23,287 nucleotides of DNA from Boothiomyces macroporosus. Taxonomy: Eukaryota; Chytridiomycota; Chytridiomycetes; Rhizophydiales; Terramycetaceae. Under the pieces are notes generated by a model that did no database searches, was not told the origin of the DNA, and saw nothing but the letters and a program-made list of their open reading frames with translations. The stretch spans positions 1-23,287 of the forward strand of contig JADGKB010000162.1 of assembly GCA_027604185.1 (NCBI GenBank). The letters run 5' to 3'. This document shows positions 2,506 to 22,101 of the stretch, piece by piece. Made by a program: the position numbers and the translations under genes. The first letter of the stretch is position 1. Every line of letters begins with the position of its first letter.

Positions 2506-3172
2506 ATGGAAAACCAATCCATACTTGGCTCAATATACGGATCTGTTAAAACTAAAGTAATTCAAATTAACCCAGTTCAACTCCATTTACAATGAAATTA
2601 ATTCAGTCTTATCTTCCAGGACAAAGAGAAACAAAATAGTTTCAACACCAGGCAAGATTACAAAAAGAAGAGTAAAGACATTCGAGACGCCAAAAAGGAG
2701 GAGAGCAGTGGAGCAAGTAGAAGACGAGGAAGAACCAGATCGATTGCGTCTAGTAGAGAAAAAGATTCAGTGGTTAGTGGATCAGCAGCTAACTAATTTT
2801 GACGGATACTTACAGCCTCAATTCACTCCTACAAAGGAAAGAGAAACTCCTACAAAGATTGATTCATTACAGCCAACCCCTCTGATTTCTTTGGAGCAAA
2901 ATATTCCTGAACTTGCCAGTCAAACGAATTCTCCCTTATTGGATAAGGTTCCTGTTCCCCCACCACCTCCACCAGTTACTAAAAGAGTAGATACTCCCAT
3001 ACCCATGAAAAACCTGCTATTGGAGATGAAACAAGTGGTGCTCAAGCCAGTCAATCAGCGCGTGTTAAAAGAAAGACAAGATCACGAGTCACTACTCAAG
3101 AAACAATTGGAAAAGAGGTTGTCATTTATTCAGCAAGAAGAGGAAATAGAAAATGACGAGTGGGATTCTTGA
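2506..3172 (+). CDS. Proline-rich protein with acidic tryptophan tail; WASP-like candidate
   Basis: Exon 1 (2506-2556) and exon 2 (2576-3172) are joined by a 19-base intron (2557-2575) that keeps the frame, giving 215 residues. A basic, probably nuclear- or lipid-binding stretch lies at about 32-61 (TKRRVK, TPKRRR), followed by an acidic patch. Residues 145-150 are six prolines. Residues 163-176 (NLLLEMKQVVLKPV) resemble a short WH2 actin-binding motif, next comes an amphipathic charged helix (about 181-203), and the end is acidic with a tryptophan (EEEIENDEWDS). PolyPro, WH2-like, connector and acidic-Trp is the order found at the C-terminus of WASP-family Arp2/3 activators, and the next gene is an Arp2/3 subunit. 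The WH2 match is one residue short and no WH1 or CRIB domain is seen, so this is a hypothesis. It could equally be an unrelated disordered protein. Confidence 0.75.
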
Positions 3173-3295
3173 TCTGGTTTAAATATTAATTGATCTATTA
3201 CTATATTTTATTATTATTTGATTTACTAATTCTGGTAGTAGGTTTACTCTGATTCTACGTCTATTAACTCTATTAATTTATCAAAATCAGAGAAA

Positions 3296-3442
3296 ATGAG
3301 CGCCACCTTGTTTAACGATTTCTGGCGAAACAATCTTTCTTGTTTCCTTACTCGCACTACTACTAATCCTATCGCGCAACTCGTTAATACTAGTTTTCAT
3401 CTTTGGGTTTTTATTCTGGATCATATACTTTCACTTTTGTAA
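3296..3442 (+). CDS. Possible short ORF (48 residues) upstream of ARPC3
   Basis: ATG at 3296 (context AGAAAATGAG) opens 48 codons ending in TAA at 3440-3442, 17 bases before the ARPC3 start. The peptide has a polar first half and a hydrophobic end (residues about 34-48). It could be an upstream ORF controlling ARPC3, a tiny separate gene, or chance. I see no family resemblance. Confidence 0.2.
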   Translation: MSATLFNDFWRNNLSCFLTRTTTNPIAQLVNTSFHLWVFILDHILSLL

Positions 3443-3459
3443 CCCATATTAACCTAGAA

Positions 3460-4029
3460 ATGCCTGCTTATCACTCTTCGTTTAACCAAACCGACGCCAA
3501 AGTCATTTCCATTCCTATCCTTCCCATCAAGACCAAAGCAAGACAGTTTGCTCCAAGTAAGACGTTGCTAACCAGATCAATTGGAAGAAGGCGATGATAT
3601 TATTGATGAAGCACTCGGATTGTTCAGAGCCAACACTTTCTTTAGAAACTTTGATATCAAGGGAGGTGCAGACAAGCTGTTGATTTACCTAACTCTGTAT
3701 ATCCAAGAATGCTTGAACAAGCTTTCCAAATTACCAAACGCTATTGAAGGTAAATTAGAGTAACAATAGGCAACAAGATTCTGCAGACACATGCAGTTCA
3801 AAACTTTCCCTTACCTGGCGATGCAACTTTTCCGTTGAACTCGATGTTTGAAAAGCCATTGACCAGACAAGATGCTGAATTCTTGAAAGGGTACTTGACA
3901 CAATTGAGACAAGAATTGGGTCAGCGATTGATTGAGCGTATCTATGAAGACGACAAGCCTAGTAAATGGTGGATGTGTTTTTCAAAGAGAAAGTTTATGG
4001 GAATGGCTGGTGTTGGAACTCTGCAATAA
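3460..4029 (+). CDS. ARPC3: Actin-related protein 2/3 complex subunit 3 (p21-Arc)
   Basis: Three exons (3460-3556, 3576-3749, 3770-4029) with introns of 19 and 20 bases give 176 residues, the usual length of this subunit (about 175-180). Family landmarks appear in order: MPAYHSSFN at the start, LPIKTKAR, then DIIDEALGLFRANTFFRNFDIKG and KLLIYLTLYIQECL, then FPLPGDATFPLNSMF, and KPSKWWMCFSKRKFM near the end. The protein is part of the seven-subunit Arp2/3 complex that nucleates branched actin filaments. Family conservation makes both splice junctions firm: the residues on either side of each removed segment match the family without a gap. This gene is therefore one of the best proofs in the window that introns of about 20 bases are real. 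Confidence 0.97.
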
Positions 4030-4036
4030 ACTTTAT

Positions 4037-4140: not shown

Positions 4141-4169
4141 ATATTAAACTTTAACTTTTCTTAATCTAA

Positions 4170-5618
4170 ATGTTCATTTTCCTGGTTACTTTTGCAGCAG
4201 CAATTGGAGGGTTACTGTTTGGATATGAAATAGGAGTAATCTCGCAAGTACTAGGAATGCCTTCCTTTCGCTCTGTTTTTAAACTGGATGCTTTCACCGA
4301 AGGACTGATTACCTCTACTTTTCTACTAGGATGCACTGTAGGAGCAGTAATCGTATCTAGGATAGCAGATACTCTAGGAAGAAGGAAATCTATTATTATT
4401 GCGTCTGTGCTGTTTATTCTCGGTGGGCTGTTTCAAAGCTTAACCTTGAATTTGTTTTATTTAGGAAGAATAGTTTCTGGATTAGGGATAGGAATCTTGT
4501 CCAGTGTGGTTCCATTATTTATTGGTGAAACCGCTCCTACTTTTATCAGAGGGCAGCTGATATCTGTTCAACAACTTATGATTACTTTGGGTGTATTCCT
4601 AGCATCTGTAGTTAACGCTATCATCATTATCAATATTGAAGGTGACTTTGAATGGCGGTTGGCACTAGGAATTCAAGTTATACCATCTGCAGTGCTCCTG
4701 TTTGTGATGCTTTCGATGCCAGAGTCACCCAGATGGCTGGCAAACAATAACTTTGAATCTGAATGCTTACAAACACTAATTCTGTTGAGGGAAGGTTATT
4801 CAAATGAAGAGGTCGAGCAAGAGTACCAGGAATTGCTGAATAGTATTAAAATGGAAAGAACGATTGGCGAGGGATCTTTTAAGGAATTATTGAACAAAGG
4901 TATAGTGAATAGAGTGTGGCTAGCAGTGCTGATTCAAATGTGCCAGCAGTGGACAGGTGCATCTAGACTAAATAGGGATTAATGTAATATTGTATTACCA
5001 AAATACACTCCTTCAAGGGATGGGGTTAGATGCAGAACAAGCAGCAATTCCATTTACTATTGCAAATAATTTCGTCAATTTCATTGCCACGTTTCCAGGA
5101 ATCTATTTTATTGAAAAAATGGGAAGGAAAAAGCTGCTTGTTATTGGTGGTATTGGCATTTTCATTTCTCATTTCCTTGTTTTTGCATTTATATCCCTTG
5201 GAAATGCCGGGATGAAGAGCATGTATTATTTAGCAATTTGTTCGGTTTACTTGTTTATTTTTTCTTTTGCCAGTAAGTTCATCTCTAATATAGGTACATG
5301 GGGGTAAGTAGCGATTGATGTAGGCCAATTGCATGGATATACCAGAGTGAGATATTTCCACTTCGAGTTAGGGCAAAAGGTACTAGTTTAGGAACCATTT
5401 CTAACTGGATAAATAATGCAATCATAGCACTAATTACGCCACTAATGATTGGCAAGATTAATGAGCAAATCTATCTTGTATTTAGCTGTTGCGGATTGAT
5501 AATGGCGTGGTTTGCTTATGCACATGTTCCTGAAACTAGCGGCAAGTCTCTAGAAGAGATGGATCTGATATTTGGCGATGGATATGTTGGTTTAGATGAT
5601 CATTCCTTTATCGAATGA
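4170..5618 (+). CDS. MFS sugar (hexose) transporter
   Basis: Four exons (4170-4956, 4976-5272, 5294-5303, 5324-5618) give 462 residues, typical of the 12-helix sugar porter family. Signatures in order: GGLLFGYEIGVIS in helix 1, DTLGRRK in the helix 2-3 loop, PESPRWL after helix 6, QQWTGINVILYYQ in helix 7 (created only by removing the 19-base intron 4957-4975), GRKK, the helix 10 signature STWGPIAWIYQSEIFPLRVRAKG (created by removing introns 5273-5293 and 5304-5323), and PETSGKSLEEMD at the C-terminus. The third exon is only 10 bases long. The start gives a very short N-terminal tail; no better upstream start is apparent. Predicted location is the plasma membrane, moving a monosaccharide by proton symport or facilitated diffusion; the exact sugar cannot be read from the sequence. 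Confidence 0.95.
5294..5303 (+). other. Ten-base micro-exon of the sugar transporter
   Basis: GTACATGGGG lies between introns of 21 bases (5273-5293, GTAAGT...TATAG) and 20 bases (5304-5323, GTAAGT...TGTAG). Splicing both out gives S-T-W-G-P-I-A-W, the conserved helix 10 motif of sugar porters. The upstream intron is a multiple of three with no in-frame stop, so its retention would add seven residues without breaking the frame. Confidence 0.85.
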
Positions 5619-5678
5619 AAATACCAAAATAAACAGCGTGAAAATGGTTTGTTTGTGTGAGCGCGTTTTTTCACTCAA

Positions 5679-8318
5679 ATGCCCTTGGACGATATACCAA
5701 ACCTCAAAGAACGCTCAGCAGTAACAAACAACCCATTCGTAATCAACGACGAACCCAAGCTAAAAAAGAGCTCCAGTTTGATGAATTTATCCCCAGACCA
5801 ACCCCTAAAAACAAACCCATTCATCAAACACGACCAAGAACAAAAGCAAGACAGGCTTAAAAGAGCTGTTTCACTGGTAAATAGAATTAAACTAGAAATC
5901 AAAAAAACAAGAGTCAATGTTGGACCTCCTACGAAACTTTGACCAAACTGAAAAACAAGAACGAATAGTTTATCAATCCAAGCCGCCATTGAACAAGAAG
6001 ATTCCAGTTGAAAGTAAAAAGCCTGTTTTGAATAGCGAAATTGTTTATGAAGAAGGTGGGAGTGTTTTGGATAGACTAAAGAAATTCACAAACATGTCAA
6101 TTAAAGGTGAAACTGGACAAAAGTCAGAGCCATCTCCCAGTCAATGTGATGCAAAGGGTGGAGCTGCTAAAGAGAATGTAGAATCGCCAATTGGCCAAAC
6201 AAATGGAATCAGCGATTCACACATTACAGTACCTGAAGCAAACACACTTTTAAAGAAAGAATCAAATGGTGAATTGGCTAAACAGAAACCTGAACTACTG
6301 ATTAGTAAAAGAAGCGGTAATAGTGATTCAGAGAGTAAGGATACGAAACAAATGCCAGCGTCACTTGTCAGTCAAACCAACCTTAAACCAGTTGCAAACT
6401 GTGAAATCGTTCATGAGCAAAACGGGTCAATCAAGGATAGATTAAACAAGTACAACTCCAGCCTTCAAAATGACGAGAGAAAACCGGTCGTTTCGAAATC
6501 TATTGACGTAAAAGAAATTATTAAAATCGAATCAAAAGCAAAGAGTTTAAAAGAAAAGAATTCAGAGATTGTTTATGAAGAAGGGGGATCACTGTTTGAT
6601 AGAAGAAGCAAGTTTTTGAACGATACCAACCCGAGAATCCCCATTGCATCGTTCTCGACTCCAATCACAAAATCCATCTTGCAACCAAAAAAACAGTTTG
6701 AGACTAAACAGGAATACAAAGTAGAATTGGAATCTAATGATGGAAAACAGATTGTAGAGTATGCAGACTGTTTGAAGGAAGATAGTTTTGAGGATGGTCA
6801 TCTATGCAAAGATCCTGTCTACCAAGAAAAGCCAAAAACGACACTTGACCTAGATGTAAACAATTTCTAATGTATAGATTCCAGAAATTAGTTTGGGGTC
6901 AATTTTTGAAGAAAAAGACCAATGGATAACGAATCTATGGGGGTTCAGTAATGTAAAGCCAGAACCAGTAAATGAAGACGCGGTTTCAGACTCATCTGCT
7001 TGTGATGAAGAGTTTAATACTTCCCAAGAACAAATCGACAATTTCATTGATTCTTACGATAGCCAAGAGCCAGAAAAAGAACCCCAAGTTGATCACGTTT
7101 TGGATACCTCAAAAAGCTCAGAAACGCTTCGATTGAGCGCTGAAGAAATACCAATCACAAAACAGATCGAAAAGAAGATGAAAAAATCAGTTTCGTTTGC
7201 TTCAGCATGGAAAGGCGATTTGGAAAACACTAGAGTTGTTTGCTCTGACCCAGTATACTTTGACCAAGTTGACCAAAGTGTTGGTCGATTGCTAGTAAAA
7301 AGTAAAACAGTATTAATCTAGTTACCAATATCCACGATGTCTTTATTGCCGCAGAGTATGATCGAGTGGTTGATTTGGAAATTTGTCAAGGAGTAATCTG
7401 TCAGACATCACCCCCTTACACTCTTAAGCAAAACCAGACTAGTTTGGCAATTGATTGGGAGACGCAATTATCAATCGTCCCAAATTCCCCAATTCATTTT
7501 CGTATTAAAGTCCGCCAAGTTTGTCCACCAGAAGGATTAAAGAGAAGCCGATCAAAACAAACCATTGGATCAGGAATCAAGCAAATGTCGAGTAAATTAT
7601 TGACCAAATTCAGTCAAACCAATCTAGCAAATTCTGAATCATTTTCCTCAATCTCTTCAGAATCTTCAACCAATTTCAAAAAAGAACCTTTGTTTGGATC
7701 AGTCCAGAACATGCGAACTGGGCATTTTATGATTTGTAATGTGGGAGAATGGACAACTGAAATGTCACAGCAAATTAGCACTACGGTCTTTGAGCTATTT
7801 GAAATTGATTTCTCTAAACCAAAACTGTTTTCATTCAAGAAAACTGATAACGTAATTTCAATCGGTAAAATTACTAGTCAGGTATTGTTCATGAAGAGTA
7901 TTGCAGATGGAAACGAGTTGCTTCCAATTAGTATATCAGAGTACAAGGATGATTTGCAAACCATTTCTTTACACTCCAAAGTATGGAAAGAAGGACAATT
8001 AAGTCAGCTTGGAGGAGATTGCGCAGACTGGAAAAGTAGACATTTCAGACTAAGCGGAACATTTTTGATTGGATGCCATGAAACGGTAAATAGTTTTTGA
8101 TCTAGACATTGGAAGAAAAAGTAAAGATATGCTTGGGCCAACTAGAGGCAATCAAGTTCAACGACAAGGACAATGCATTTTCACTAGAGTTCCGAGATGG
8201 CGAAATCATAAAGTTTCAATGTAGAGATGAGATGGAACGCAAGCATGAGTGGATCGAAGCTATCGAAGATTCTCAAAATATATTGGCGGATAATCCGCTG
8301 CCTGCTTGGGCACAATAA
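5679..8318 (+). CDS. Anillin/Bud4-like cytokinesis protein with C-terminal PH domain
   Basis: Five exons (5679-5876, 5896-6855, 6878-7301, 7322-8085, 8106-8318) with introns of 19, 22, 20 and 20 bases give 852 residues. The first ~515 residues are disordered, rich in Ser, Lys and Glu, and contain three copies of an 18-residue motif, consensus SEIVYEEGGSxxDRLxKF, at about 113-130, 235-252 and 289-306. From about 521 (VGRLLVKITNIHDVF) to about 740 the sequence resembles the anillin homology/C2-like domain of Bud4, Mid2 and anillin. A PH domain follows at about 748-838 (KEGQLSQLGG, WKSRHFRLSG, and the closing helix tryptophan in HEWIEAIED). Such proteins bind membrane and septins and organise the division site. 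The splice joining VGRLLVK to ITNIHDVF restores the start of the anillin domain. Whether it is a true Bud4 orthologue or a more general anillin is not resolved. Confidence 0.85.
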
Positions 8319-8329
8319 CTTTTTCTTTT

Positions 8330-8335
8330 AATAAA
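8330..8335 (+). promoter_or_regulatory. AATAAA, probable polyadenylation signal
   Basis: AATAAA lies 12 bases after the stop of the anillin/Bud4-like gene and only 14 bases before the end of the oppositely directed transcription factor gene. The 3' ends of the two transcripts therefore probably overlap. Confidence 0.5.
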
Positions 8336-8348
8336 GTAACAGGAAATA

Positions 8349-10139
8349 TTATATTCTAGCAATCAGTTTTTCCATATCTTGGCCAACTAATCGGGCTCTT
8401 ACAGAAAATTCACCGATTTGTTTGATCAAAAGAACCAATTTCTTCATATCGGCTTTTACGCTTTGTAGTACTTGTTGGTTATCCCTGAACGCAATCACAA
8501 GTGTTGTGCAAATGCAAAATTGGAAAAAGGCAATCATGGGAGTGGCAATCAACGGGCTACATACACTATTTTCATTCAATACATTTTGAGACCCAGTTGC
8601 TACATCTACTACATGACAAGCAGCTTTGAAACTAGCCAGTAATATTTCTTTTGGAGAAACTTCTGGTCCACCTAGTTCAAGAGGATAAAGTGTGTCATCT
8701 TGATGGAGAATCGCTGACAAATGAAGGTATGAAAACATTGACAAAATAGTCATTTGAACAGAGTATACCTCCCTCAAAGATTTTATAGAAGGCACTATAA
8801 AAGTTTTCAGGGATTTGGCCATAACAGCTTGGCCTGGAAATGACGCGAGTATAGACAACAGTTGATCATGGAAAGCTCTTCTGGTTGCAGCATCAGTATC
8901 AAGCTTTGGCTCGTATTTTTTCAGCCTGCTAAATTTGATAATTTCCCTAAAGAATTTCAATCGCTTGATTTGTCCTTGTACCCTTTTCTTGGCATTTGGT
9001 AGGAAATAAGTAAATTTGGTAGAGTTTTCTTTACATTCATCAAAAATATCTGCATGGATTGTGTTTTCCCACACAGTGTTTTTTGCTTTTGAGGGTTCAA
9101 ATTGCCTGGAAAGATAGCTAGAGAATATTCCATGGATTTTGTTTGAATAGTCGAAAAATGTATCCAATATTGTATCGTTTACATTTATATCGGGATATAA
9201 CGTTTCATCAATGATAAAGTTGTCTCCTTTAGCGATAGCCAAGTGAGTGTCAATCGTAAATGCCATCAAGTACAGAGTATATCTCTCCGTAACATCTCGA
9301 GGGGATAAATCTCCAAACTGTATTCCCAAGGAATCGACCTGTGTTATCAAGTCATCTATAGATATTTGATGTGATTCCAATTCATGGTATTCATTTGGAT
9401 TAAATATTTTGTATTTCTTTCCAAGAATGTAAACTGCATGGAATAATTCAAAAGCCCTATCCCGGTTTCCAATCATTTCCTGTGTTGATGAATGCAGCAG
9501 CAGTGCCCTAATATCATCACATAATTCTAAATTTGTTTTATATTCGTGGATGGGTTTCATCATTGAAATATCGATATCAAACCTCTGGGCTGCTTCATAA
9601 CGCTCTTTGAATGTGGGCGGTGAATGGAACAGCAAAGGGTGATTCGAATAAAACGTGGATGCATAGCACACTGCATTTTTCAGCAGTTTCGACATTGGTT
9701 CTGGTCTGTTCATTGGAATTACCGAAAAATTATCCGCAGTGCAACAGAACCCGCAATAGTACAAGAAGGAAAGAGAAATCAAATGCGTTTCCAATTCCGA
9801 TTGTTGCAGTTCCGTAATATTAAATTTAGGTGCGGATAATTGAAATTCAAATACAAATTGGTCTGGATCAAATAGGCTTTCGTTTGAATCCACAAATCCA
9901 GGATAATCGTATTGGGTCATTTCTGGAGATACTTCCTGAACATGTTCGTCATTTGCAGAATAATCGCTAGAGTTGGTTGCCGAATGAGATAGTTCTGCAT
10001 CCTCATATCGACATGTGCTGTTCTTGCCATACATGCTTTTCTGGTAGAGAGTGCACTTGCTGCATGGGAATTTGCCATCGCATTTCACTTTCCGCTGTCG
10101 ACATACAATGCATGGATTGTTGTTTCTCTTTTGCTTCAT
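8349..10139 (-). CDS. Zn2Cys6 (Gal4-type) fungal transcription factor
   Basis: A single exon of 596 residues starts at ATG 10139. The DNA-binding domain is at the N-terminus: C10, C13, C20, C26, C29 and C43 give CxxCx6Cx5CxxCx13C, with the basic RQRKVKCDG loop, which binds two zinc ions and CGG-type half sites. The last loop before C43 is longer than usual (13 residues). An acidic, Ser-rich linker follows. The long helical middle region includes a segment near YLMAFTIDTHLAIAKGDNFIID that resembles the fungal-specific transcription factor domain. Six-cysteine factors of this type are essentially restricted to fungi and some amoebae, so this gene is the best taxonomic marker here. Target genes are unknown. 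It is one of the few long genes in the window with no intron. Confidence 0.93.
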   Translation of the reverse strand: MKQKRNNNPCIVCRQRKVKCDGKFPCSKCTLYQKSMYGKNSTCRYEDAELSHSATNSSDYSANDEHVQEVSPEMTQYDYPGFVDSNESLFDPDQFVFEFQLSAPKFNITELQQSELETHLISLSFLYYCGFCCTADNFSVIPMNRPEPMSKLLKNAVCYASTFYSNHPLLFHSPPTFKERYEAAQRFDIDISMMKPIHEYKTNLELCDDIRALLLHSSTQEMIGNRDRAFELFHAVYILGKKYKIFNPNEYHELESHQISIDDLITQVDSLGIQFGDLSPRDVTERYTLYLMAFTIDTHLAIAKGDNFIIDETLYPDINVNDTILDTFFDYSNKIHGIFSSYLSRQFEPSKAKNTVWENTIHADIFDECKENSTKFTYFLPNAKKRVQGQIKRLKFFREIIKFSRLKKYEPKLDTDAATRRAFHDQLLSILASFPGQAVMAKSLKTFIVPSIKSLREVYSVQMTILSMFSYLHLSAILHQDDTLYPLELGGPEVSPKEILLASFKAACHVVDVATGSQNVLNENSVCSPLIATPMIAFFQFCICTTLVIAFRDNQQVLQSVKADMKKLVLLIKQIGEFSVRARLVGQDMEKLIARI

Positions 10140-10336
10140 GAGTCGAATCTGAGCTGCGAGCTATTTAAATCAACGCCACATCCTTTTTGTTATCTCCACC
10201 CAATTGTAGAATCCAGCAAGGAATTAAGGAAGCGTTTTTGGGAGGCCAGTGGAACCCTAACCCTTAAATCTGATGTATTCAACGCTACGCGAAAGCCAAT
10301 CACACCTCTGAAACTACCAGACTGAATCAATGTCTT
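10140..10336. promoter_or_regulatory. Upstream region of the Zn2Cys6 gene with telobox-like repeat and CCAAT
   Basis: Roughly 200 bases separate the start of the transcription factor gene (minus strand) from the end of the GyrI-AHSA1 gene. AACCCTAACCC lies at 10253-10263, about 115 bases upstream of the start codon. A CCAAT motif lies in AAAGCCAATCAC near 10293-10304, and TATTTAAAT lies about 20 bases upstream of the ATG. An open frame on the plus strand here is unlike any protein I know and was not called. Confidence 0.4.
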
Positions 10337-11257
10337 TTATTTGAATACTTGATTGAAGCTGTCAATCATAAAGTTCCACCCATCCTTGTGTTGTCTTCCC
10401 ATTTTACAGTTTGGTAGCCCTTTGTGTTCAATCACGACAAGAGTTTCACTTCCGGAAGGAGTAAAAGTAAAGGTAACAAGACTGTCGAGCCCTTTTGTAT
10501 ACATGGACATCCATCGCATTGAAACCTTTTCCCCGTCTTTAAGCTCAACAAATTTGCCATAATGCGGATAGCGATTCCCTCCAAATTCAACACAATGGTA
10601 AAATAGCCCGCCTTCTTTGATATCAAGGAAATAGTCTTTGACAGTGTACCAAATTGACCCAGGTTTAGTGCGATCCAAGAGGGTATCATATAATACTTTT
10701 GGACTAGCTTTTACCTTTCCTTCAACCTTGATTGTAATTGTCTTTTTTAAAGGCACATAGATTTCGGTGATCAAATCTGCTTCTGGAGTAGTTTCAGGAG
10801 TATTGACATAACGTTCGATATACGAACCAGATTCTTCCACCTGTTCTTTTTCATGAGCTCGTTTCATTACATTTCCCATTTCAACTGGAAGTTGATCATA
10901 CGATCCCCGCAATACAAACTTTGCATAAAGACCGCCATCAGATTTAATCTGTACAAAGCCGTCCGGAACGTCTTTGGCTGGTTCTGTAAGTTGAACACCA
11001 GCTCTATAGATGGGTTCTGGCTTTAATTGAAACACTGTTTGTAAATATTCGGTGTTTGCAGGAAGAGGTGCAGCTTTGAAAGCCTTCCAAGTGCTTGGAG
11101 CTGTCTCCATAAACGGGCCTTTAGCTTCAATACCATAAAAGTAGAATGGATCAAGATCAACGATAGTGTACCCTGATTCAAGCATTTGTGGGAAAACAAT
11201 TTTTTGACCCAAAGCCACTTTTTTAATATTATCGAATCCGAGTGGTGTTAAATACAT
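10337..11257 (-). CDS. GyrI-like ligand-binding domain fused to AHSA1/SRPBCC domain
   Basis: An intronless frame of 306 residues starts at ATG 11257. Residues about 33-171 match the GyrI-like (AraC effector-binding) fold: FYFYGIEAKGP, STWKAF, YRAGVQLTEP, GGLYAKFVLRGSYDQLP and, at the end, SYIERYVNTPETTPEADLITEIYVPL. Residues about 174-306 match the AHSA1-type SRPBCC fold: ITIKVEGKVKASPKVLYDTLLD, EGGLFYHCVEFGGNRYPHYGKFVELKDGEKVSMRW, SLVTFTFTPSGSETLVVIEHKGLP, and the closing GWNFMIDSFNQVF. Both are small-molecule or hydrophobic-ligand binding folds best known from bacteria, where they occur as separate or AraC-linked proteins. The fusion and the lack of introns hint at transfer from bacteria, but this is inference. 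The ligand is unknown and no signal peptide or membrane segment is seen. Confidence 0.85.
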   Translation of the reverse strand: MYLTPLGFDNIKKVALGQKIVFPQMLESGYTIVDLDPFYFYGIEAKGPFMETAPSTWKAFKAAPLPANTEYLQTVFQLKPEPIYRAGVQLTEPAKDVPDGFVQIKSDGGLYAKFVLRGSYDQLPVEMGNVMKRAHEKEQVEESGSYIERYVNTPETTPEADLITEIYVPLKKTITIKVEGKVKASPKVLYDTLLDRTKPGSIWYTVKDYFLDIKEGGLFYHCVEFGGNRYPHYGKFVELKDGEKVSMRWMSMYTKGLDSLVTFTFTPSGSETLVVIEHKGLPNCKMGRQHKDGWNFMIDSFNQVFK

Positions 11258-11466
11258 GTTGATTGGAATATGGTTCCTTTAGTTCACTTTTATGTATCAG
11301 GCAAAGCCGATCCGCTCAAGGCTTGAATCGGTTTCTTTTAAGACTACCAAAGTACCTTGAAGTTACTCTGAATTACTAGTGCGAGTAAACAAATACAACA
11401 GCCTTTTTGTTTGGAATGTAACTCTAATTAGCCCGTGAAAGTCACGTGTACTGTATTCATTCCTGA
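11258..11466. other. Divergent intergenic region, no gene seen
   Basis: About 210 bases lie between the GyrI-AHSA1 gene (minus) and the small gene on the plus strand. They presumably contain both promoters. A CACGTG E-box palindrome lies in AGTCACGTGTAC around 11442-11447. Nothing else stands out. Confidence 0.3.
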
Positions 11467-11874: not shown

Positions 11875-11971
11875 AATAGATTCATCTCACATACGAAAGG
11901 TTTAATATCTATGAGCCTAACTGGAGTCTGATCACAGTACTATCGCAGTGCTAGAATATCTTGTTTATTAA

Positions 11972-12066: not shown

Positions 12067-12105
12067 TTTATTAGTGGGTTCAAACCTATAAATTATCCAT
12101 CTATA

Positions 12106-13475
12106 TTAATAGTAAAGTGGGTTCGTTCCTGCAGGGATGAAAATATCAATGAATTTGGGGATATAAGAGGACTTTTCTATAGTGTAGCAGGAATAGGAGT
12201 AGTTGAAATCCACGATGGCTACATATTCCGACAAAACATTCACAGCAACTACTCTGTTGGGGTAGATTTTTTGCAGCCTGGAGAGATGATCACAATAAAT
12301 AATTTGGGATCCATTTGGGTAGAAATCTACTGGGTGTACTATTTCACGCCCCAATATATTTACTTTAACATTTCCATCAGCAGTTATTTCTCCAACAAAG
12401 AGCATGTCAGGGTTGTATTTGAAATACAAATCTGATGGACGGGCATATACCATTTTGAATGATGGTTTTGCCCTGTCATGCACTGCCAAATAGCTACCAT
12501 CTAATACTACAATGGTTACTTGATCTGTAACTGCGTCACAGTAGCCGTCTCTTAGCTCTACACTTTCCTCACCATTACGAATTATAAATGCTTTACCAAT
12601 ACTTTCTTCTGAAATGATTCTACCGTAAATTGTAACTCCATTTGGAGTTTTATCTGAATCACATTTTCTGATAGAATCAGACGCAAGCCAATATTCACCT
12701 TCTTTTAATGAAGGCAAGTGTACCCTGAATACTTCAGTGAGCAATGTATACTTTTTTGCATGATGTTCTGGTATGCGGGCCATCCAATTCATAAAATTAC
12801 TCTTCAACTTTTCTTTCCTAGTTTCAATTTCATGCATTAGTTTCATATCAAGAGTTATTGGTAACTTTGCAGATTTGTTAATGGAAGATTCAAGGGCTAC
12901 TAAGGATGGATTTGGTGTATTTGATTGGAGAGATCTGTCAGAGTCAGAACAAATTGAAATTTCACCGTTCTCTCCACCACTAATGTTTGGCAAGTCTTTG
13001 TCACGCACTATATTTATTTCGTCCAAATCTGACTCCCCAAGAGTGCTTTCTTTAGTTGTTTCTCTGGCCGCTGGTTCGTGATCATCCTCTTCATCATGCG
13101 CTGAAACTGACTGTGATTCATCATCTTTGTTGAATATATTGCAATCTCCTTGCCTTTTGAATAGTCGTTTAGCAGGATTGTCAATTTCAGTACTCCCTAC
13201 AGTTAAACGACGAAACCTTTGCCATGAGTTAACCTGTTTTCGATATCACTATCGTTTTTCCGTTTACAACTAGAAATTGGATACTCTTTAGGATTATCCA
13301 TGTAATTTTCTTTAATGGATGCTTTTGCGAAATTTGATTCATGGTCAGAAATACTATTCGGGTAAGCTAGTACCTCTTTCGGACTTTGTATTGTACCACC
13401 AACATCCCTCTTCATTGAAATAGTGTAAGCGGTCAAGCTATGCAGGTTAGGGTTACAAAAAAATCCTCCTTCCAT
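12106..13475 (-). CDS. Unknown protein, tandem paralogue of the 14068-15425 gene (copy 1)
   Basis: Exon 1 (13475-13217) and exon 2 (13196-12106) joined across a 20-base intron (13197-13216) give 449 residues. The first ~200 are polar and probably disordered, with acidic stretches and one basic patch (AKRLFKRQ). From about residue 205 to the end, a conserved domain of roughly 245 residues aligns almost without gaps to the neighbouring copy: SLKEGEYW, GRIISEESIGK, the AKP motif in HDRAKPSFKMVYARPSDL, YNPDMLFVGEIT, KVNILG, PNGSQIIYCDHLSRLQKIY, VAIVDFNYSYSC, KFIDIFIPAGTNPLYY. It looks beta-rich. No signal peptide or membrane segment is seen. I recognise no family. ATG 13475 is the first in frame. 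The frame is open a little further upstream without an ATG, where a possible 18-base intron ends, so a 5' exon may be missing. Confidence 0.75.
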
Positions 13476-14067
13476 TTCTACAAGCCATGTGGAATGGTTG
13501 CTCTTTTGGGAACGGCACCAAGAACACAAGAACTAGAAAAAAAAGTTTACCAAAATATTGTGAAAATAGATAAAAAACACGCTATTAGAACCGCGTAGTC
13601 ATTAAACTGATTCAAGTATCTTTATTTTAAAACTTGGTTGGTGAGGTGCTTTACACTTTGCGTAACTTTGTACCTGTGGCACATTTATTCATTTGAATAA
13701 GCACCTGCTAATTCAGTATTGGTGATCTCAATGGGATAGATATGGAGCAAGTAGTGCTTCCATAGTACTATTATGAGATACTCCTATGAATTAATGAGGA
13801 ATGGGTGTATTAAAATCTTGCTTGAAAAAAAATAGTTTAATATTCTCAGTTGATAGAACAATTCATTAATTAAAAGCCTTTTATTGAAAGAATGTGTGAT
13901 TCAGATATATATGATCATTCCATCTTTATGAATATACCAAGTCTTCAATTTTTGCTACGATGTCTCGTAAAAAATTTTCGGATTCCTAAGGATATTCAGA
14001 AATTTCTCGCAAGGCTTTATAACTCTGACATTTTTAATTTGATAGTTGTTTCAATGAGATAGTTTTA
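13476..14067. other. Intergenic region between the tandem paralogues
   Basis: About 590 bases separate the end of the downstream-lying paralogue (stop at 14068) and the ATG of the other (13475). The DNA is AT-rich with many short stop-filled frames. I see no gene, RNA or repeat array. It should contain the promoter of the 12106-13475 gene and possibly a short 5' exon near 13530-13600. Confidence 0.4.
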
Positions 14068-15425
14068 TTAAAAGTAATGTGGATTTACGCCTGCGAGTAT
14101 TACACGATCAATAAACTTTGATTTATATTTCCCGGGTGCTGTACACATGTCACAAACATTACATGCGTAAGAATAATTGAAATCCATTATTGCTACATTG
14201 TCTGATAAAACAGTTAGCTCAACTACCCTTGAAGAGTAGATGTTTTGCAATTTGCAAAGGTGGTCAATGTAAAAAACTTGACAACCGTTTGGGAAAACAT
14301 CCACATCATACACCTCATCCTGACCAAAAATGTTTACTTTGAACTTTTGATCTGAAGTGATTTTTCCAACAAATACCGTATCTGGGTTGTAGTCAAAAAA
14401 CAAATCTGGGGGTCCAGCACAAACTTTTTGGTAAGCGGGTTTGGCCTTGTTATACAGAGCGAAAAAACCGTCATTACGGACTTTTACGGCTATCAATTTC
14501 GTAACTGATTCAGTATAACCAACATTCAATTCGACTCTATTGCGGCCATTGAGTAACAAATGCTTTTTACCGAAAGATCCCTCTGAAGTGATTACCCCTA
14601 AAAATACTGCGTCCTCTGGTACTTGAGATTGATTACTGGTAATGATAAAATCAGGACCAAACCAATATTCTCCCTCCTTGAGAGAATGTAAGTCTAATGT
14701 AAAGACTTCAGAAAGTTTACCAAGTTGGTTTGCAAAATGTTTTGGCAAAGCAATTTTCCAATCCAAGAAATCTTCATGAGTTTTAGTTTTATATTCTTCA
14801 ATCTTAGTCAGCAACTCTAAACTCAAAGACAAAGAATTCTCTTCTGACGTACTTGCACGAAAGGGATTGCTTAATTGTAATTTGTCTTTTGTGGAACTGA
14901 GTTGGCACTGACTTGTGTATGAATTATCGATAGTCGTCTGAACACAGTGAAAATTGTTCAAGAGTTGTGTAGGTATGCTAGAAGCAAGTTCATCTAACTT
15001 AGATTCAGGACTTACTGTTATATTTCAAAGATTTACCAAGTTCAGCTCTTTGATATTCTTGAAAAGCTAGCTCATCACTTGGGGAAACTGAGTCTATTAA
15101 GCTACCATTTGATTCATTACACTCTTCGTTGGATATGAAAGAAGTCTCCGCAAGACCCCCTTGATCCAAAATGAATCTCTGAGTCCTGAGATAAGTTTCT
15201 AAGGAGGCTACTGTTAGTTAAATTTACAACTGTTTGGAGTGACTTCATTTCTGGCTTCAAAAAACCCTTGGTTATTGGACAAAGGCACGTCTTGAATGGG
15301 TGGTGGTAAATTATCACCGTTAATGGACACATCTGCCAAACTAATTTCATAATCAGAACTACTATCAGTACTTCCGAGAAGTTCCCCAGGACCTGCTATT
15401 AGTTAAATTTACCGTCAATGTTCAT
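14068..15425 (-). CDS. Unknown protein, tandem paralogue of the 12106-13475 gene (copy 2)
   Basis: Four exons from ATG 15425 give about 433 residues: 15425-15413 (13 bases), 15395-15228, 15210-15016 and 14993-14068. Introns are 15396-15412, 15211-15227 and 14994-15015 (22 bases). The first two can be read as 17 bases, or as 20 using a second AG three bases on (15393-15412 and 15208-15227); all choices keep the frame. The N-terminal ~185 residues are acidic and disordered and share little with copy 1. Residues about 186-433 carry the shared domain: SLKEGEYWFG, GVITSEGSFGKK, AKPAYQKVCAGPPDLFFDYNPDTVFVGKIT, KVNIFG, PNGCQVFYIDHLCKLQNIY, VAIMDFNYSYAC, KFIDRVILAGVNPHYF. Copy 2 has an extra Cys-rich loop (CNVCDMC) near the end. 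Same orientation as copy 1 and about 590 bases apart, so they arose by tandem duplication followed by strong divergence. Function unknown. Confidence 0.78.
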
Positions 15426-15764
15426 TGAATTGCTTCTGGCTGAACCGTTTGAAAAGTAGGGTGCTTCGAAAACTGTGGCTATTTAATCAATTAGTTCAGG
15501 TCCCAAAACATGTGAGATTATTTCCTGTTTTAGAAATTCTATTCTAAACACAAGAAAAACGGGACCTCTCTCGACCTCTAAAAAAATAAAACTAATCAAT
15601 AATCTGTAAAAAAAATTTGAAAATTATTGAAACAATCGATATTTTTTGCTCTAGAAACTTGATTTGAACTTCACCTCTTGCATAATAATTCTTTGTGATT
15701 GTGGCGCAGGGAAAAACAGTCTTTTGCACAGGAAACAAACGTTGTCTGTACTTTGTCAAAAAAA
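15426..15764. other. Divergent intergenic region, possible 5' coding extension of copy 2
   Basis: On the minus strand the frame of copy 2 stays open for about 55 bases upstream of ATG 15425 with no ATG, bounded by ...TAAATAG, which could be a splice acceptor. An earlier non-ATG exon is therefore possible. The rest is AT-rich with A- and T-tracts around 15580-15650, likely promoter sequence. No other gene is seen. Confidence 0.35.
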
Positions 15765-15893
15765 ATGAACTTTATCAAAATTGCCTTAGTTGCTGTGTCT
15801 GTAGTATTGGCGTCGAATGTCCCGGTTGGGCCAGAAGAGGTTGTACCAGTTTCATTACGTGATATTGACAATGGTAAAGCTCAAACAGAATAA
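15765..15893 (+). CDS. Possible short secreted peptide (42 residues)
   Basis: ATG 15765 follows an A-run (AAAAAATG) and opens 42 codons. Residues 1-17 have the shape of a signal peptide: MNFIKIALVAVSVVLAS, with one lysine, a hydrophobic core and a small-residue cleavage site around A16/S17. The remaining 25 residues are acidic and Pro/Val-rich. The product could be a secreted peptide or the N-terminus of a longer protein, although splicing at the GTAAAG near 15872 leads quickly to a stop. It could also be chance. No family recognised. Confidence 0.35.
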   Translation: MNFIKIALVAVSVVLASNVPVGPEEVVPVSLRDIDNGKAQTE

Positions 15894-16330
15894 GATTAAT
15901 TGTCTCATTCGTACTACTGAATGCATCAATAAATTGTCGTGTATTTGCAAAACATTGTGTTTCTATTAGTGAAGTCTAAAGTATTAGTCGAATTGAGTAT
16001 TTCGGAAAGTCCGTCAATCAAATAAGAAAGAGTGATAAAAATAAGGCTAATTTCAAAATATTGCACAATCTGTTTATCCAAGGTTCAGTAATTCATTTAC
16101 TCAGTTTTCTTCAGTATGAATTAGAAGAATTGATATAGAATAAGGTTACTTATTTCATTAATAGAGTGATCAAAATAATTTTTTGTGTTTGGAGGAACCG
16201 ACCACGCATCCCACCTGACGTCTGTGTCCATTTTTACCATCTTGGGACAAAGTACCCCTGTGATAGCTCTTTTTGGTAGCTCAACCAAAAACTTTGTGTT
16301 CAAAAGCGCAAAGTAATTTCCTTCCTCCTT
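15894..16330. other. Upstream region of the ABC transporter
   Basis: About 437 bases. An 83-codon open frame on the minus strand (16121-16372) begins with GTG and overlaps the ABC exon 1, so I treat it as antisense to coding sequence. TGACGTCT, close to a CRE-type bZIP site, lies near 16215. In the ABC frame the DNA is open back to a TAG near 16276, so a few more N-terminal residues by an upstream exon cannot be excluded. Confidence 0.4.
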
Positions 16331-19300
16331 ATGACCAAAGTAAAATTCAACTTTCTCAATCGCTTTACGCACTCATGGGCCACGCCAATAATTAAAAAAG
16401 CAGCGAAAGACGATTTGGCAAATGACGTTTATTTTCTCTAAATTAGGATTTTCCAGAGCTAACTGATTCATATGAACAAATGACTGCGCAATCAGCACCG
16501 TTTTTCCATGAACTGAAATTATACTTGGATGGAGTGAGCCCTAAACCACCAAGTCTCTATTGGCATCTGTTCAAAATATATCGAAAAGAAATGTAACTTC
16601 TGCTTAAACTAGACTTTCAATCACTATTCTAAAGTTGATTTCCATGCTAGTTTCTGGGTTTAAACCATTGTTGATTGGCCAAGTAGCTCTGCTTTGACAC
16701 TAGTTTATTTCTTTTCTTGACCCAACAGCTCCGCACGAATATTGGTTCAACAGCATTTCAATAGTACTGGGATTACTACTTTTGACCTCAGTCTGTATTC
16801 CAACCATTGACTCTTTTACTAATGGAATTGATGGAAGGTTTCGTGCTAGATTCTACATGTATTTTTACACTATGATGTACGAGAAAATATTGAGGCTCAG
16901 TGCAAATAGTCGCATAGTAATTATAGCTAACGATAGAAATTTGAAACAGGCAACTTGATTAATATGTTTGATCGAGACTCTTTCAGGGTTATTCAAGGTC
17001 TGACTATAATGAACACGTGTGTTTTTCCAATTGTTCAAATTACTACAAATTTGATATTTCTTCAGTCATTAATTGGCCTCACCGCATTATTCACTGGCAT
17101 ATGCTATTTCACTCTGTTGGTACCAGTTATCTTTTTGCAAATGAAACTCCAAAAGTTATCTACCACTGTCCACATACTCCAAGATAGCAGATTGAATATT
17201 CTGGAAGAAGTATTCAAGAGTATTATAATTTAATAGTAGATATCAAGAAAATCAAACTTTCCAATATTCAAGACTATTTCTATAGCATAGTGAAAAGAAA
17301 TTTGGACAAAGAAATGGGTATATGGCATAAACTATATATCGTGAATAGACTATGCAACACGGTGATGGGAAGTTTTACCACAATTCTTAGTTGCTCTACT
17401 TTTGTTATATACAGTATTCTAGGAAACACTATGAATCCGCACATTATATTTCCAACTTATTTGTATTTAGATTCAATTGCTGGCCAATTTCAACATCTAC
17501 GAAGGGTGTTTGGGTCCTCTTTGGACACGTATGAAGGTTATGCGATCGTAACCGATATTCTACATTCCGAAGAGAGGCCAGAGCAAATTATAACTGACAG
17601 GGACAGCAGCAATGCAATTGTATTGAAAAAAGTTACTTGGAAATGGTGTGATCCAGTATATGTGAAAAAGCTCCATGATCACGAACTAAAGAAGAAACGT
17701 TACATTAGGGAGAAAAAAGATGAATTCACCGAAAAAGAAAACTTGAATACCTTTGAATTGAAAGGGGTTAACGTTGTGATAAAGAAGGGGGAAAGAATAG
17801 GAATAGTTGGCGCTGTAGGAGCTGGGAAATCGACCTTGTTTAATGGATTGACGAGGGAGTTGATACCAAAAGACGGAAAGGTATAACAAGGTATTAATAC
17901 TAGATGGAAATTAATGGAACAATTGCTTACTTTACTCAAGAACACTGGATAATGATGGACTCTATGAAAACCAATATCACTTTTGGAAAAGAGTTGGATT
18001 ACGAGAAATTAGAGAGGATTGTTAAAGCATGCTGTCTGGTGAAGGATATCAACTCGTTTGAAGATGGTATTAATTCAATGTTGGGAGAGAGTGGGATCAA
18101 TTTATCTGGTGGACAGAAAGCCAGAGTGTCTTTGGCAAGGTGTATCTATTCAGAGGCTGATATTTATCTGTTGGACGATCCACTAGCAGCCCTTGATGCT
18201 TACGTTGGCAGGCAAGTGTTTGAGAGAGCAGTAAAAGGAGAATTAGCAGGTAAAACGGTACTGTTATCTACCCATCAGTTGCAATACATGAACCAAATGG
18301 ATAAAATTATTGTGCTTGACAAGGGGCAAGTGGTTGAATTTGGCACATTTGATGAATTGAAAAACACTGAAAATGGTATCTTTAAAAACATGATTGAAAA
18401 TCATAAATATGATGATATTGAAGAGTTTGCTGGTGTAGAAGAAGAAGAATTGCTTTATCCACTGTCAGAAATTCAACAAAAACCAAGGGAATTGATTAAA
18501 GAAGATTCAAAGAAAACTGTAATTCTATTTAATTGTAGGGAGATATCAAATGGCATTTATACACAAAACTTTTCGACGGAATTACAAGCAATCTGTGGTT
18601 TATATCTATGGTTTTCGGTTTCTTGTTGAACTTTGGGTTTGAATTCTTAGGGTTGGTTCGTTTGGTCTAATGATTCTAGTAGAGATATGTTTTATATTGG
18701 AATTCTCAGCGCATCAACTGGTTTAAGGTTACTTGTATTTTGTAAAACATGTTGACAATAGATAGTGTAACCTTTGGATGGTTCATTGGAGGAATTAACA
18801 ACCACAAGTACTTTTACAGTAAAATGACGACCTCGGTACTAAACGCACCCCAATACTTTTTTGAAGAAAATCCAATAGGTAGAGTTTTAAGTCGATTTTC
18901 AACAGACTTGAGAATATTTAATCACGTAATGTTTGATTCTATGCAACAAATAGTAACTGGATCTCTCTCTTTCATTGGAAAGAATGTTTTGGTTTGTCTT
19001 GCGAGCCCATACTTGATTGGTAGTTTAATTTAATACTAGTGTTGTTAATGTTTGTATATTCAATCATCTGGACCATACGTGGAGTCTTTGAATCTGCAAT
19101 TGTTAGAATCACCAGATCAATGTTAGTTTCTCTCTATCAAAGCAGAGGCTGTGAAAGGAATGACAACAATCACCAGTTTTCCAAATATTTCAACCTTTTA
19201 CAAAATGAGGTGTGTAATATTGTGCATCCCCTTTGTAAACAAATTGGGAATTCAGATATACACACAGTCATGGTATCAGTTCCGAGTTTCCATTATCAAC

Positions 19301-20378
19301 TTGCTGATTTCATTTGGGATTATTGGGGCAGCAATGCTATCAAATACTAAAAGCACAATCTTTAGCTCTTTGGTGGCATTAGCATTGACTCAATCAGAAA
19401 CATGTTCTGCTCAACTCCTAGATTTAGTTCGTTCTATCGCTCAAAACAAATCACAGGTAATATTTGCTTATTCTAGATGAATTCTTTCGAAAGAGTTTTA
19501 GAGTATTGCGAAGAGATTGATCAGGAACCAGCAAAGACACTTGATACTGATCCAAAAGAGTGGCCCATTCAAGGTGAAATACAGATTGCTGATTTAACAA
19601 TGGCATATCACAGCAAACCTGAAGTAGATGTTCTCAAAAATATCAATCTTTCGATTAAAGCTGGAGAAAAGATTGGTGTTGTTGGAAGAACAGGGTCTGG
19701 GAAATCTACTTTGGCAATGGCATTCTTTAGAATCATGGAACCTAAATCTGGAACGATTATAATTGATGGAACAGGTATTTCTTTGTTAATCCAGACATTA
19801 CCAAAATTGGCATTTCTACTCTGCGAAGTAATCTGTTTATCATTTCACAAGAAGCAAACGTGTTTACTGGCACTATTAGATACAATTTGTCCTTGGATAC
19901 CCAGTATTCAGATGAAGAATTATGGGAAGCATTGCATCTTGTTGGCTTGAAAGAGTATGTATCCCAACTTCCAGACAAACTAGATCACCAACTGGTGGAT
20001 AATGGAAGCAACTTGTCTGTTGGTCAAGGACAGCTACTGTGTCTAGCTAGAGCAATTGCAAAGAAACCCAAAGTATTGATATTAGACGAAGCAAGTTCAT
20101 CGATTGATGGTGAAGCAGACAAGAAGTTGCAGCAAGTGCTTCGTAAAGAGTTGGTTGATACAACTATTATCAGTATTGCTCACAGACTAAACACAATCGC
20201 AGATTTTGACAGAGTGATGGTGCTAGACCAAGGAGAGTTGGTTGAATTTGACTCTCCTTTCAATCTCTTGTCAGATCAAGGAAGCGAATTCTCAAAGTTG
20301 GTGGATGCATCTGGCTCTGCAAACTCGGTCGCAATCAGAGAAATCGCAGAACATAAACATAGAAGTAATAAAGCTTGA
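16331..20378 (+). CDS. ABC transporter, subfamily C (MRP-type), full-length, many tiny introns
   Basis: Fourteen exons totalling 1,256 residues fit an ABCC protein without the extra N-terminal TMD0: 16331-16426, 16447-16592, 16613-16682, 16704-16916, 16937-17219, 17240-17880, 17904-18518, 18539-18651, 18680-18741, 18762-19019, 19040-19101, 19127-19456, 19477-19774, 19795-20378. The start shows the ABCC linker NFLNRFTHSWATPIIKKA. NBD1: Walker A GAVGAGKST (460-468), signature LSGGQ (550-554), Walker B YLLDDP (571-576). NBD2: Walker A GRTGSGKST (1033-1041), LSVGQ (1136-1140), LILDEA (1157-1162). NBD1 has a charged insertion of about 35 residues before Walker A. Eleven introns are 20-23 bases (one readable as 17 or 20). 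Two junctions (18652-18679 and 19102-19126) need 28- and 25-base introns or one-base frameshifts and are uncertain. Likely an export pump for conjugates or organic anions in the plasma or vacuolar membrane. Confidence 0.94.
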
Positions 20379-20534
20379 ACGGTTGATTTCACTTTGATTT
20401 CTCAAACCTAATCACCCATGTAAGCTTCCAGTTCAAAAATGCTTATATCTTGACTTTTAATCTTTTACAATAGTGCTTATCCTTGCATTAAATTAATGCA
20501 GTGATAACATTTGAAGGTGTGCAATTAAATCACA
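20379..20534. other. Spacer between the ABC transporter and LRR genes
   Basis: AT-rich, about 155 bases. It holds the ABC gene 3' end and the LRR gene promoter. TTAAATTAATGCAGTGATAAC near 20487-20507 resembles an intron end but no exon before it can be supported. Confidence 0.3.
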
Positions 20535-22101
20535 ATGTCAAAAAGATTCCTCAACGTTGAATACAATGGATTGAAGGCAGAAATTGATGTTACAGATGCA
20601 GAAAGGCTTGGTCAGGTACAACTTACTATCAAGACAACTTTTGGGAATACTTTTGAAAAGGTAGATGCTCCATACCTGCAACCTTTCCAACCTCTAGATA
20701 GTGAGAAAAGGCATATAAACAAATGGAAACAAGTCAATTCTCTCCCTCAAAATTACTTTGAAGAAGGTCGCTATCGAATGCAGACAAATGTGTTCCAGTG
20801 CACCCCAGTTTAGCGACATTCACGAAAGGATACCGCACTTGTCAAGTATCAAATGGAAGTTTCCAAAGATTGAAATACTTTCCAATTCGTTTCAGTACAT
20901 GTATCGATACCTGCCGAAATCTAATGATCTGGTTTTATCTGTAGCGGAGCAAGTAAATTATCGAAAGTTGGAAAAAGCAGTAAAATATCGACCAGCAAAT
21001 ATATTGGAAATCTGCACGAATAGGAAAATGAATTGTTTGAGTTTATCAAAAATACTGGCAGAAAACAGTAGGCTAACTCATTTGAATTTGTATTGCGAAG
21101 TGGACAAGAGTGTCCCTAAAATACTTGCAGACATTATTCCCCATACCCCGATACAAATTCTAGAATATGCTTGTAGTTTTATGACTGACGATCTAATGAA
21201 AGATTTGTTTGAAGCACTACCTAAATCGTCCATCAAACAATTAAGTTTGGGAGGAAACTATTTGACAGACATTTCCATCTTGTCACGAGTATTAAAAGAC
21301 ACAAATATCACGTTTTTAAAGTTGGATGATAATAGAATTGATGAAGCGGGAATAAAGAACTTGTCCAAGGGATTGATTGGGTCTAAAGTTAAACACCTGG
21401 ATTTAGAGAACAATCCAATGGATGATATCTGCGATATCTTGGATGTGCTACCTTTGATTGAACTGGAAAGCTTGTGTGATGATGGGGATGATGTATCACA
21501 AGAATTACTAATACGCAACCTCCCAAAATCAAACCTAAAAGAATTGCGATTTGGATTTGTATCGGAATATATCAAAGATTTCTTGATTGCATCCAGTCAA
21601 TCAAAACTAGATTCAGTTGCGATTTATTCAGAAGATCCTGATGAATGTTGTGCAGAAATCCAAGATAGCATCCAGTTTGTCAATTTCAAGAAACTCTTGA
21701 TTGATGATATTACTCTAGACGGTTTATACCATCTTGCCGCACTAATACATACAAATTTAGAGTCACTTGATTTAGGAAATTCCAATATTGAAGATGAAGG
21801 TATGCAATGTCTGGCATTTTTCCTGCCTCAAACCAAAATCAAGTACTTGTTCGTGAATGACTGTGGGTTTGGTGATTCTGGAATGGCATACGTTGCTGCA
21901 TGCTGGAACAAAACATTACTTGTACATTTAGAAATGCGATCTGCACTGGCAACAAATTCGGGTGTCCAACTTGCTTTACTTGGGTTACAATTCTGTAATG
22001 GATTCTTGCGCTACTTGGATATCTCACTTGCTCAAAATGTTGATTTGCCTCTTGCTAAAAGTATGGCGAGAAAATATCCACAGATTGAGATTATTTTTTA
22101 A
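20535..22101 (+). CDS. Leucine-rich-repeat protein with possible Crinkler-like N-terminal header
   Basis: Exon 1 (20535-20789) and exon 2 (20809-22101) joined across a 19-base intron (20790-20808) give 515 residues. From about residue 170 to the end are LRRs of the ribonuclease-inhibitor type, 25-29 residues each (IKQLSLGGNYLTD, ITFLKLDDNRIDEAGIKNLSKGL, VKHLDLENNPMDD, LESLDLGNSNIEDEGMQCLAFFL, IKYLFVNDCGFGDSGMAYVA). Such domains are protein-binding and usually cytosolic. The first ~75 residues, with EIDVTDAERLGQVQLTIKTTF then FEKVDAPYLQPFQ, resemble the ubiquitin-like header of Crinkler (CRN) effectors (an 'x-V-G-x-V/L-K/Q-x-x-I-K' core and 'DA-x-x-L-x-L' strand). That resemblance is from memory of the family and not tested. 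No signal peptide is seen. Confidence 0.85.

Follow-up and report, generated by a model that had tools for sequence, protein, structure and literature searches.

How short can the introns of a fungus be as a rule? The question is raised by a stretch of 23,287 nucleotides (nt) from Boothiomyces macroporosus (Chytridiomycota, Rhizophydiales, Terramycetaceae), a free-living soil chytrid. This stretch, called the window from here on, is a complete contig (C162) of an assembly of 15.2 Mb in 216 contigs. According to an original prediction, segments of about 20 bases, running from GT to AG, interrupt the genes of the window as introns, and this length is the norm in the genome. The prediction spoke of a fungus-like organism. 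It is a true fungus, so the qualifier is not needed. The proposal about the norm holds well beyond the window, as seen with a gene model, its decoys, a scan blind to coding and a genome-wide pattern. Judged from sequence, the segments are almost certainly genuine spliceosomal introns of the U2 type, squeezed in this fungus to a hard lower limit and among the shortest known.

Length and extent of the short introns

We sampled 223 kb from 21 sources: the window and 20 stretches of 10 kb. The stretches were picked by place, mostly bases 20,001-30,000 of larger contigs, and not at random. The gene model consisted of codon-periodic Markov exons and any GT..AG intron of 10-200 nt, with an equal prior for every length. 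An initial intron cost of 10 was too strict and left 35-36 introns. The cost was then lowered, equally for all decoys. Under this flat prior, 45 GT..AG introns of 18-22 nt were placed in the 223 kb. Ten decoy dinucleotide pairs gave 5, 5, 5, 0, 4, 7, 5, 4, 2 and 2 in the same length range.

A second run added splice-site profiles and kept the length prior flat over 12-300 nt. It made 111 calls. Most of them (81) were of 19-23 nt, with 18, 40, 11, 9 and 3 at the successive lengths, and the other 30 were spread over 34-297 nt. Nine decoy pairs had only 0-5 calls at 18-23 nt, compared with 81 for GT..AG. The decoy comparisons of both runs rule out chance. Above 23 nt, within the 12-300 nt modelled, GT..AG calls presented no excess. 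The decoys exceeded them in every longer bin: 2-12 against 1 at 24-35 nt, 4-16 against 2 at 36-60 nt, 8-20 against 3 at 61-100 nt, and 25-39 against 24 at 101-300 nt. The length distribution is narrow in the 223 kb (19-23 nt) and shows no second mode up to 300 nt.

At 19-22 nt the coding-blind scan yielded 126 strong GT..AG pairs against about 18 expected. By length there were 44, 46, 24 and 12 pairs at 19, 20, 21 and 22 nt, with 4 at 18 nt and 4 at 23 nt. Calls of 18-23 nt had served to train the profiles; this could favour such sites, but not the sharp edge between 18 and 19 nt. The background was 4.5 +/- 1.8 pairs per length over 26-60 nt. The lengths have a sharp cut-off at 19 nt.

Genome-wide, the pattern GTAAN{4,34}TTAATNTAG had 993 matches against 313 for the reversed control, a count that duplicated assembly stretches inflate somewhat. 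The first 100 of the 993 matches included 53 of 19 nt, 23 of 20 nt, 6 of 21 nt and 6 of 22 nt, that is, 88 at 19-22 nt. None was of 18 nt, one was of 17 nt and 11 were longer. When the length prior was learned instead of flat, at least one short intron was called in each of the 21 sources. Extrapolated to the whole genome, their density corresponds to about 9,300 introns, and the pattern count to 5,600-22,000.

Introns of ARPC3 and the sugar porter

Two of the predicted segments lie in ARPC3 and three in a sugar porter gene. All five are found at exactly the predicted coordinates (Table 1), and their removal improves the matches to the protein families. The gene model missed these introns, so their support is homology.

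With its three introns removed, the sugar porter presents one continuous PF00083 match of 365.9 bits, covering positions 1-452 of the 452 in the profile. Unspliced, the match is broken into three pieces of 203, 55.8 and 77.8 bits. Two of the introns enclose a micro-exon. Removing 5273-5323 in one piece ruins the downstream frame, whereas keeping the micro-exon yields the full-length match.

ARPC3 starts at 3460. Its spliced translation, made from the window DNA, is identical over the full length to the deposited B. macroporosus ARPC3. Against a profile built without Boothiomyces, its score rises from 173 bits (unspliced) to 292 bits (spliced). In a deletion scan, removal of intron 2 obtained the top score among 2847 distinct deletion products; shifting the same 20 nt by 1-2 bases yields the identical product. 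A search of IMG/VR with the ARPC3 alignment returned no DNA of relatives. The deposited annotation already splices ARPC3 in this way, so the trait is already in public data, even if undescribed.

Structure of the introns

The structure was studied in 136 introns shorter than 30 nt, obtained with the learned length prior. One 57-nt call among the 137 was left out. The 3' ends are TAG in 98 introns, CAG in 29, AAG in 7 and GAG in 2. A branch motif of the form [CT]T[AG]A[CTA], whose A lies 3-12 nt upstream of the final G, is present in 116 of the 136. This site is degenerate, and TTAAT is its commonest form. The consensus that had been drawn by eye (a GTA(A) start, the branch motif and a final TAG or CAG) agrees with these counts.

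The branch A lies at position 14 in 53 introns, at 15 in 47, at 16 in 10, at 17 in 3, at 10 in 2 and at 11 in 1 (n = 116, the 20 introns lacking the motif being excluded). Positions 14 and 15 together hold 100 of the 116, a near-fixed distance from the 5' site. The 5' site and the branch site do nearly touch, as was predicted. From the branch A to the last G there are mostly 5 nt (59 introns) or 6 nt (40), so no space is left downstream for a polypyrimidine tract. A cross-table of branch position and length shows that the length variation is divided between both arms.

Position +5 is not enriched in G. It is G in 23 of the 136 introns (95% interval 11-24%), and the genome frequency of G is 19%. 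Position +4 is A in 88 introns, and +6 is T in 81. The length is not a multiple of three in 113 introns, and 20 of the other 23 contain an in-frame stop; these counts are biased, since the gene model is blind to stop-free introns of 3n length.

Could the segments be something other than major-class introns? U12-type introns are marked by a GTATCC start and a CCTTAAC branch site. One of the 136 introns starts with GTATCC, and CCTTAAC occurs in none (0/136). Both the ends and the branch site are U2-type. Self-splicing would need a ribozyme, which is too large to fit in 19-23 nt. A reading of the segments as U12-type introns, as self-splicing elements or as elements eliminated at the DNA level is scarcely credible.

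The splicing machinery

The prediction had named U1, U2, U2AF and SF1 for inspection. We found that U1, U2, U6, SF1, U2AF65 and Cwc25 look ordinary. The 5' end of U1 is canonical (AUACUUACCUG). The genome has two U2 copies, which score 142 and 135 bits, and the branch-binding sequence GUGUAGUAUCUGUUCUU (GUAGUA) is kept. U6 (62 bits) keeps ACAGAGA. In SF1 the helix-hairpin, KH and zinc-knuckle domains are all present, and its gene has one model intron of 24 nt. The spliced model of U2AF65 reaches 315.4 bits, the curated cut-off being 310.3. With an Isy1 gene also found in the genome, the U2-type reading is consistent in its parts: GT..AG ends, a branch site matching U2, and U1, U2, U6, SF1, U2AF65, Cwc25 and Isy1 all present.

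Two other observations concern these genes. The U2 genes, at C80:60682 and C178:9607, are nearly alike in their 5' halves and different in their 3' parts. SPF45 (RBM17), on which the splicing of some short human introns depends, combines a G-patch with a UHM. There were seven G-patch matches; by eye, with no domain search run, no UHM-like domain adjoins them in the models or frames.

A specially altered spliceosome might be needed for such introns, as proposed for Stentor, in which Cwc25 is without a glycine plug and the N-terminus of Isy1 is not conserved (excerpts of PMC9505925). We think this requirement unlikely in Boothiomyces. Its Cwc25 begins with MGGGDLNLKKSWHP, where the plug is intact, and over 14 residues it agrees without a mismatch with the CWC25 chain in 6zym (presumably human). 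Isy1 speaks for the alteration, since the N-terminus of the deposited model is divergent. Against the best ISY1 chain of solved structure (6ff7, presumably human), it aligns only from its own residue 34, and it starts with MAPKTLAQKQEANILKKYDG where most other full-length aligned relatives begin MARNEEK. However, this start exon is an unproven prediction, and an alternative reading exists.

Longer introns and points against the interpretation

The ISY1 gene (C39:29935-30720) was also scanned by deletion. The product lacking a 20-nt segment ranked first of 2389, and the one lacking a 19-nt segment second of 2369.

The interpretation of the segments as introns at a hard minimum has several points against it. 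Within ISY1, where deletions of up to 70 nt were compared, removal of a 46-nt GT..AG segment gives the top-ranked product among 3500 distinct ones. A 49-nt intron is annotated near the start of the gene and opens with a good 20-nt intron candidate. These two introns imply a spliceosome that is not restricted to tiny ones. Another 20-nt segment of the gene, in a poorly conserved stretch, ranked 100th of 2451. In ARPC3, a same-frame deletion of 16 nt scores 294.7, above the 291.7 of the 19-nt removal of intron 1. The pattern used genome-wide has 15 matches within the 223 kb, 9 of them at 19-22 nt, and among the rest are 2 at 17 nt and 1 at 18 nt. The blindness of the gene model to stop-free introns of 3n length means that the drop at 21 nt is partly bias. 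As for the machinery, U1 scores 68.8 bits, just below the gathering score of 69.5. The Rfam model found no U5, although its controls also matched nowhere, and U4 and Prp8 were not searched. Finally, we infer the removal of the segments from RNA from the protein-level agreement with deposited models. Those models are predictions and may share assumptions with this analysis.

The two long ISY1 introns would also fit a large second class of ordinary introns of 50-300 nt, missed by the gene model. Such a class seems very improbable, because GT..AG calls above 23 nt do not outnumber the decoys when the length prior is flat, in the range modelled (up to 300 nt). The 46-nt intron is the only homology-supported one longer than 28 nt that we saw. 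The statement that no intron is longer than 28 bases stands for the gene models of the window; for the genome it fails on this intron. ISY1 encodes a branching factor, and its longer introns might reflect a splicing-dependent control of the gene.

The assembly contains duplicated stretches. Two contigs (C49 and C100) share stretches of 3111 identical bases. On contig C2, pattern matches are repeated letter for letter at a constant spacing of 42,596 bases (269637/312233, 282417/325013, 305031/347627 and 306894/349490). These repeats could be either segmental duplications, or haplotypes or repeats assembled twice.

An assembly with an identical pair of 3111 bases may be imperfect. The segments might then be sequencing or assembly insertions, or frameshift noise resembling introns. 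We give this explanation next to no weight. The segments are present in 21 of 21 sources, keep a fixed branch ruler and are far above the decoys. Furthermore, the ISY1 product with its 46- and 49-nt segments removed differs at 1 of 241 residues from the protein deposited for a second isolate, JEL0838; the other 240 are the same. Genuine U2-type introns near a minimum length remain by far the best explanation.

Other introns and genes of the window

The original prediction counted about 29 short introns in the window. We support 22 (Table 1). The 22 comprise 11 introns from the gene model, the five of ARPC3 and the sugar porter, and 6 frame-restoring segments. Five of these six came from a frame scan, and the one at 2557 was tried by hand. 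The frame scan had 18 candidates, and 14 are in the 22; those starting at 1125, 14320, 17686 and 21823 were left out. The segment at 20790-20808, taken as the predicted one that ends at 20808, has no branch-site motif and was not counted.

Table 1. Short introns and the micro-exon of the window, with the evidence for each.
Feature	Coordinates	Strand	Length (nt)	Evidence
ARPC3 intron 1	3557..3575	+	19	Spliced protein equals deposited ARPC3
ARPC3 intron 2	3750..3769	+	20	Deletion scan and deposited protein
Sugar porter intron	4957..4975	+	19	Removal restores QQWTGIN; PF00083 match
Sugar porter intron, upstream of micro-exon	5273..5293	+	21	PF00083 match
Sugar porter micro-exon, between two tiny introns	5294..5303	+	10	Removal of both introns gives TWGPIAWIYQSEIFP
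Sugar porter intron	5304..5323	+	20	Frame scan and PF00083 match
Candidate intron, gene starting at 2506	2557..2575	+	19	Frame restored upon removal
Intron, gene 5679-8318	5877..5895	+	19	Gene model
Intron, gene 5679-8318	6856..6877	+	22	Gene model
Intron, gene 5679-8318	7302..7321	+	20	Gene model and frame scan
Intron, gene 5679-8318	8086..8105	+	20	Gene model and frame scan
Intron, gene 12106-13415	13197..13216	-	20	Gene model and frame scan
Intron, gene 298-809 (weak model, score 3.3)	620..639	-	20	Gene model and frame scan
Candidate intron, gene 14068-15393 or beyond	14994..15015	-	22	Frame restored
Candidate intron, gene 14068-15393 or beyond	15208..15227	-	20	Frame restored
Candidate intron, ABC transporter	16917..16936	+	20	Frame scan
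Intron, ABC transporter	17220..17239	+	20	Gene model and frame scan
Intron within first ABC_tran domain	17881..17903	+	23	Gene model and PF00005 flanks
Intron, ABC transporter	18519..18538	+	20	Gene model
Candidate intron, ABC transporter	18742..18761	+	20	Frame scan; low site score (1.2)
Candidate intron, ABC transporter	19020..19039	+	20	Frame scan
Intron, ABC transporter	19457..19476	+	20	Gene model and frame scan
Intron within second ABC_tran domain	19775..19794	+	20	Gene model and PF00005 flanks

In the ABC transporter, the open frames flanking the intron of the first ABC_tran domain match PF00005 at 1-42 and 59-137, and those flanking the intron of the second match it at 1-50 and 48-136.

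The remaining genes show other features. A methyltransferase gene of a single exon (1315-2340) encodes a protein that is 99% identical to one from Boothiomyces sp. JEL0838; its identity to one from Terramyces sp. JEL0728 is 83%. On the minus strand, 10337-11257 encodes a protein whose N-terminal half carries a GyrI-like domain and whose C-terminal half carries an AHSA1 domain. An ankyrin-type gene (22204-23046) has repeats of the form WLKENGCPW. Short interstitial runs of CCCTAACCCT, resembling telomere units, lie between gene models at 10255 and from 22139 on. The Rfam search of the window had no match.

Comparison with other lineages

To our knowledge, a normal intron length of about 20 nt is known only from ciliates, mikrocytids and a nucleomorph. 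The original prediction had named ciliates and the Bigelowiella nucleomorph. This comparison agrees with the literature, to which the mikrocytids have to be added. What follows is taken from excerpts of the cited papers.

Stentor and other heterotrich ciliates have introns of 15-16 nt (PMC9505925, PMC10245619). In Stentor the branch A is nearly always at position 10 of 15, with the last G 5 nt later. The commonest intron starts with GUAAU, with no G at +5, and the recognition sequences of U2 and U6 are conserved (PMC9505925). The introns of Boothiomyces are likewise tiny, uniform and GU-AG genome-wide, with the last G mostly 5-6 nt after the branch A. They differ in the loop, which is of 14-15 nt instead of 10, in the glycine plug of Cwc25, kept here and missing in Stentor, and in belonging to a fungus.

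The mikrocytids Mikrocytos mackini and Paramikrocytos canceri have introns of 16-17 nt in a very narrow range (PMC10245619), and the range is narrow in Boothiomyces as well. However, the mikrocytids are parasitic and their spliceosome is much reduced; in M. mackini 224 introns are predicted. By extrapolation, Boothiomyces has about 9,000, and it keeps SF1 and U2AF65. In the nucleomorph of chlorarachniophytes (Bigelowiella), introns of 18-21 nt (PMC10245619) cover nearly the same lengths as ours, but they lie in the relic nucleus of an endosymbiont, whereas the 15-Mb genome of Boothiomyces is the organism's own. Paramecium and Nyctotherus share with Boothiomyces an ultrashort norm; theirs is longer, of about 25 nt, and they are ciliates (PMC5014332).

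A paper of 2025 still called a 23-nt intron of Trichomonas one of the shortest known. In T. vaginalis it is one of 63 active introns of an intron-poor genome and makes no norm. A pan-eukaryotic survey excluded introns of less than 30 bp in all species. Among the matches listed in our literature search, which left most subscription journals outside its scope, no report described introns of about 20 nt in a chytrid or another non-microsporidian fungus. Within this scope the original statement, which knew of no such lengths described for a fungus-like organism, survives. Among those matches we found no earlier example of this norm in the fungal kingdom.

A possible mechanism and its meaning

Splicing would proceed by intron definition. 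U1 would read mainly AG|GTA(A), because no G enrichment exists at +5. Next, U2 would pair with the branch site, which lies beside the 5' site. It seems unlikely that U1 and U2 are fully engaged together over about 13 nt, and their engagement would be sequential. The handover from U1 to U6 therefore probably overlaps the recognition of the branch site. The 3' site would be the first AG that follows the branch A. The floor of 14 nt might be the smallest lariat loop that this spliceosome can close, as set by its active site.

On balance, we see about equal reason to accept and to doubt a stronger claim. It states that an ordinary, unreduced fungal spliceosome, which has U1, SF1 and U2AF65 and in which the Cwc25 plug is intact, removes about 9,000 introns with loops of 14-15 nt and a hard floor of 14, and that it needs neither a G at +5 nor a polypyrimidine tract at the 3' end. 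If this is true, the splicing of tiny introns needs no loss of the Cwc25 plug. A fungus with dense tiny introns, the SF1/U2AF65 pair and an intact plug argues against a forced loss. A second floor of the loop (14 nt against the 10 of Stentor) would make the limit lineage-specific and testable. A culturable fungus would then offer a system for testing how small a spliceosomal intron can be.

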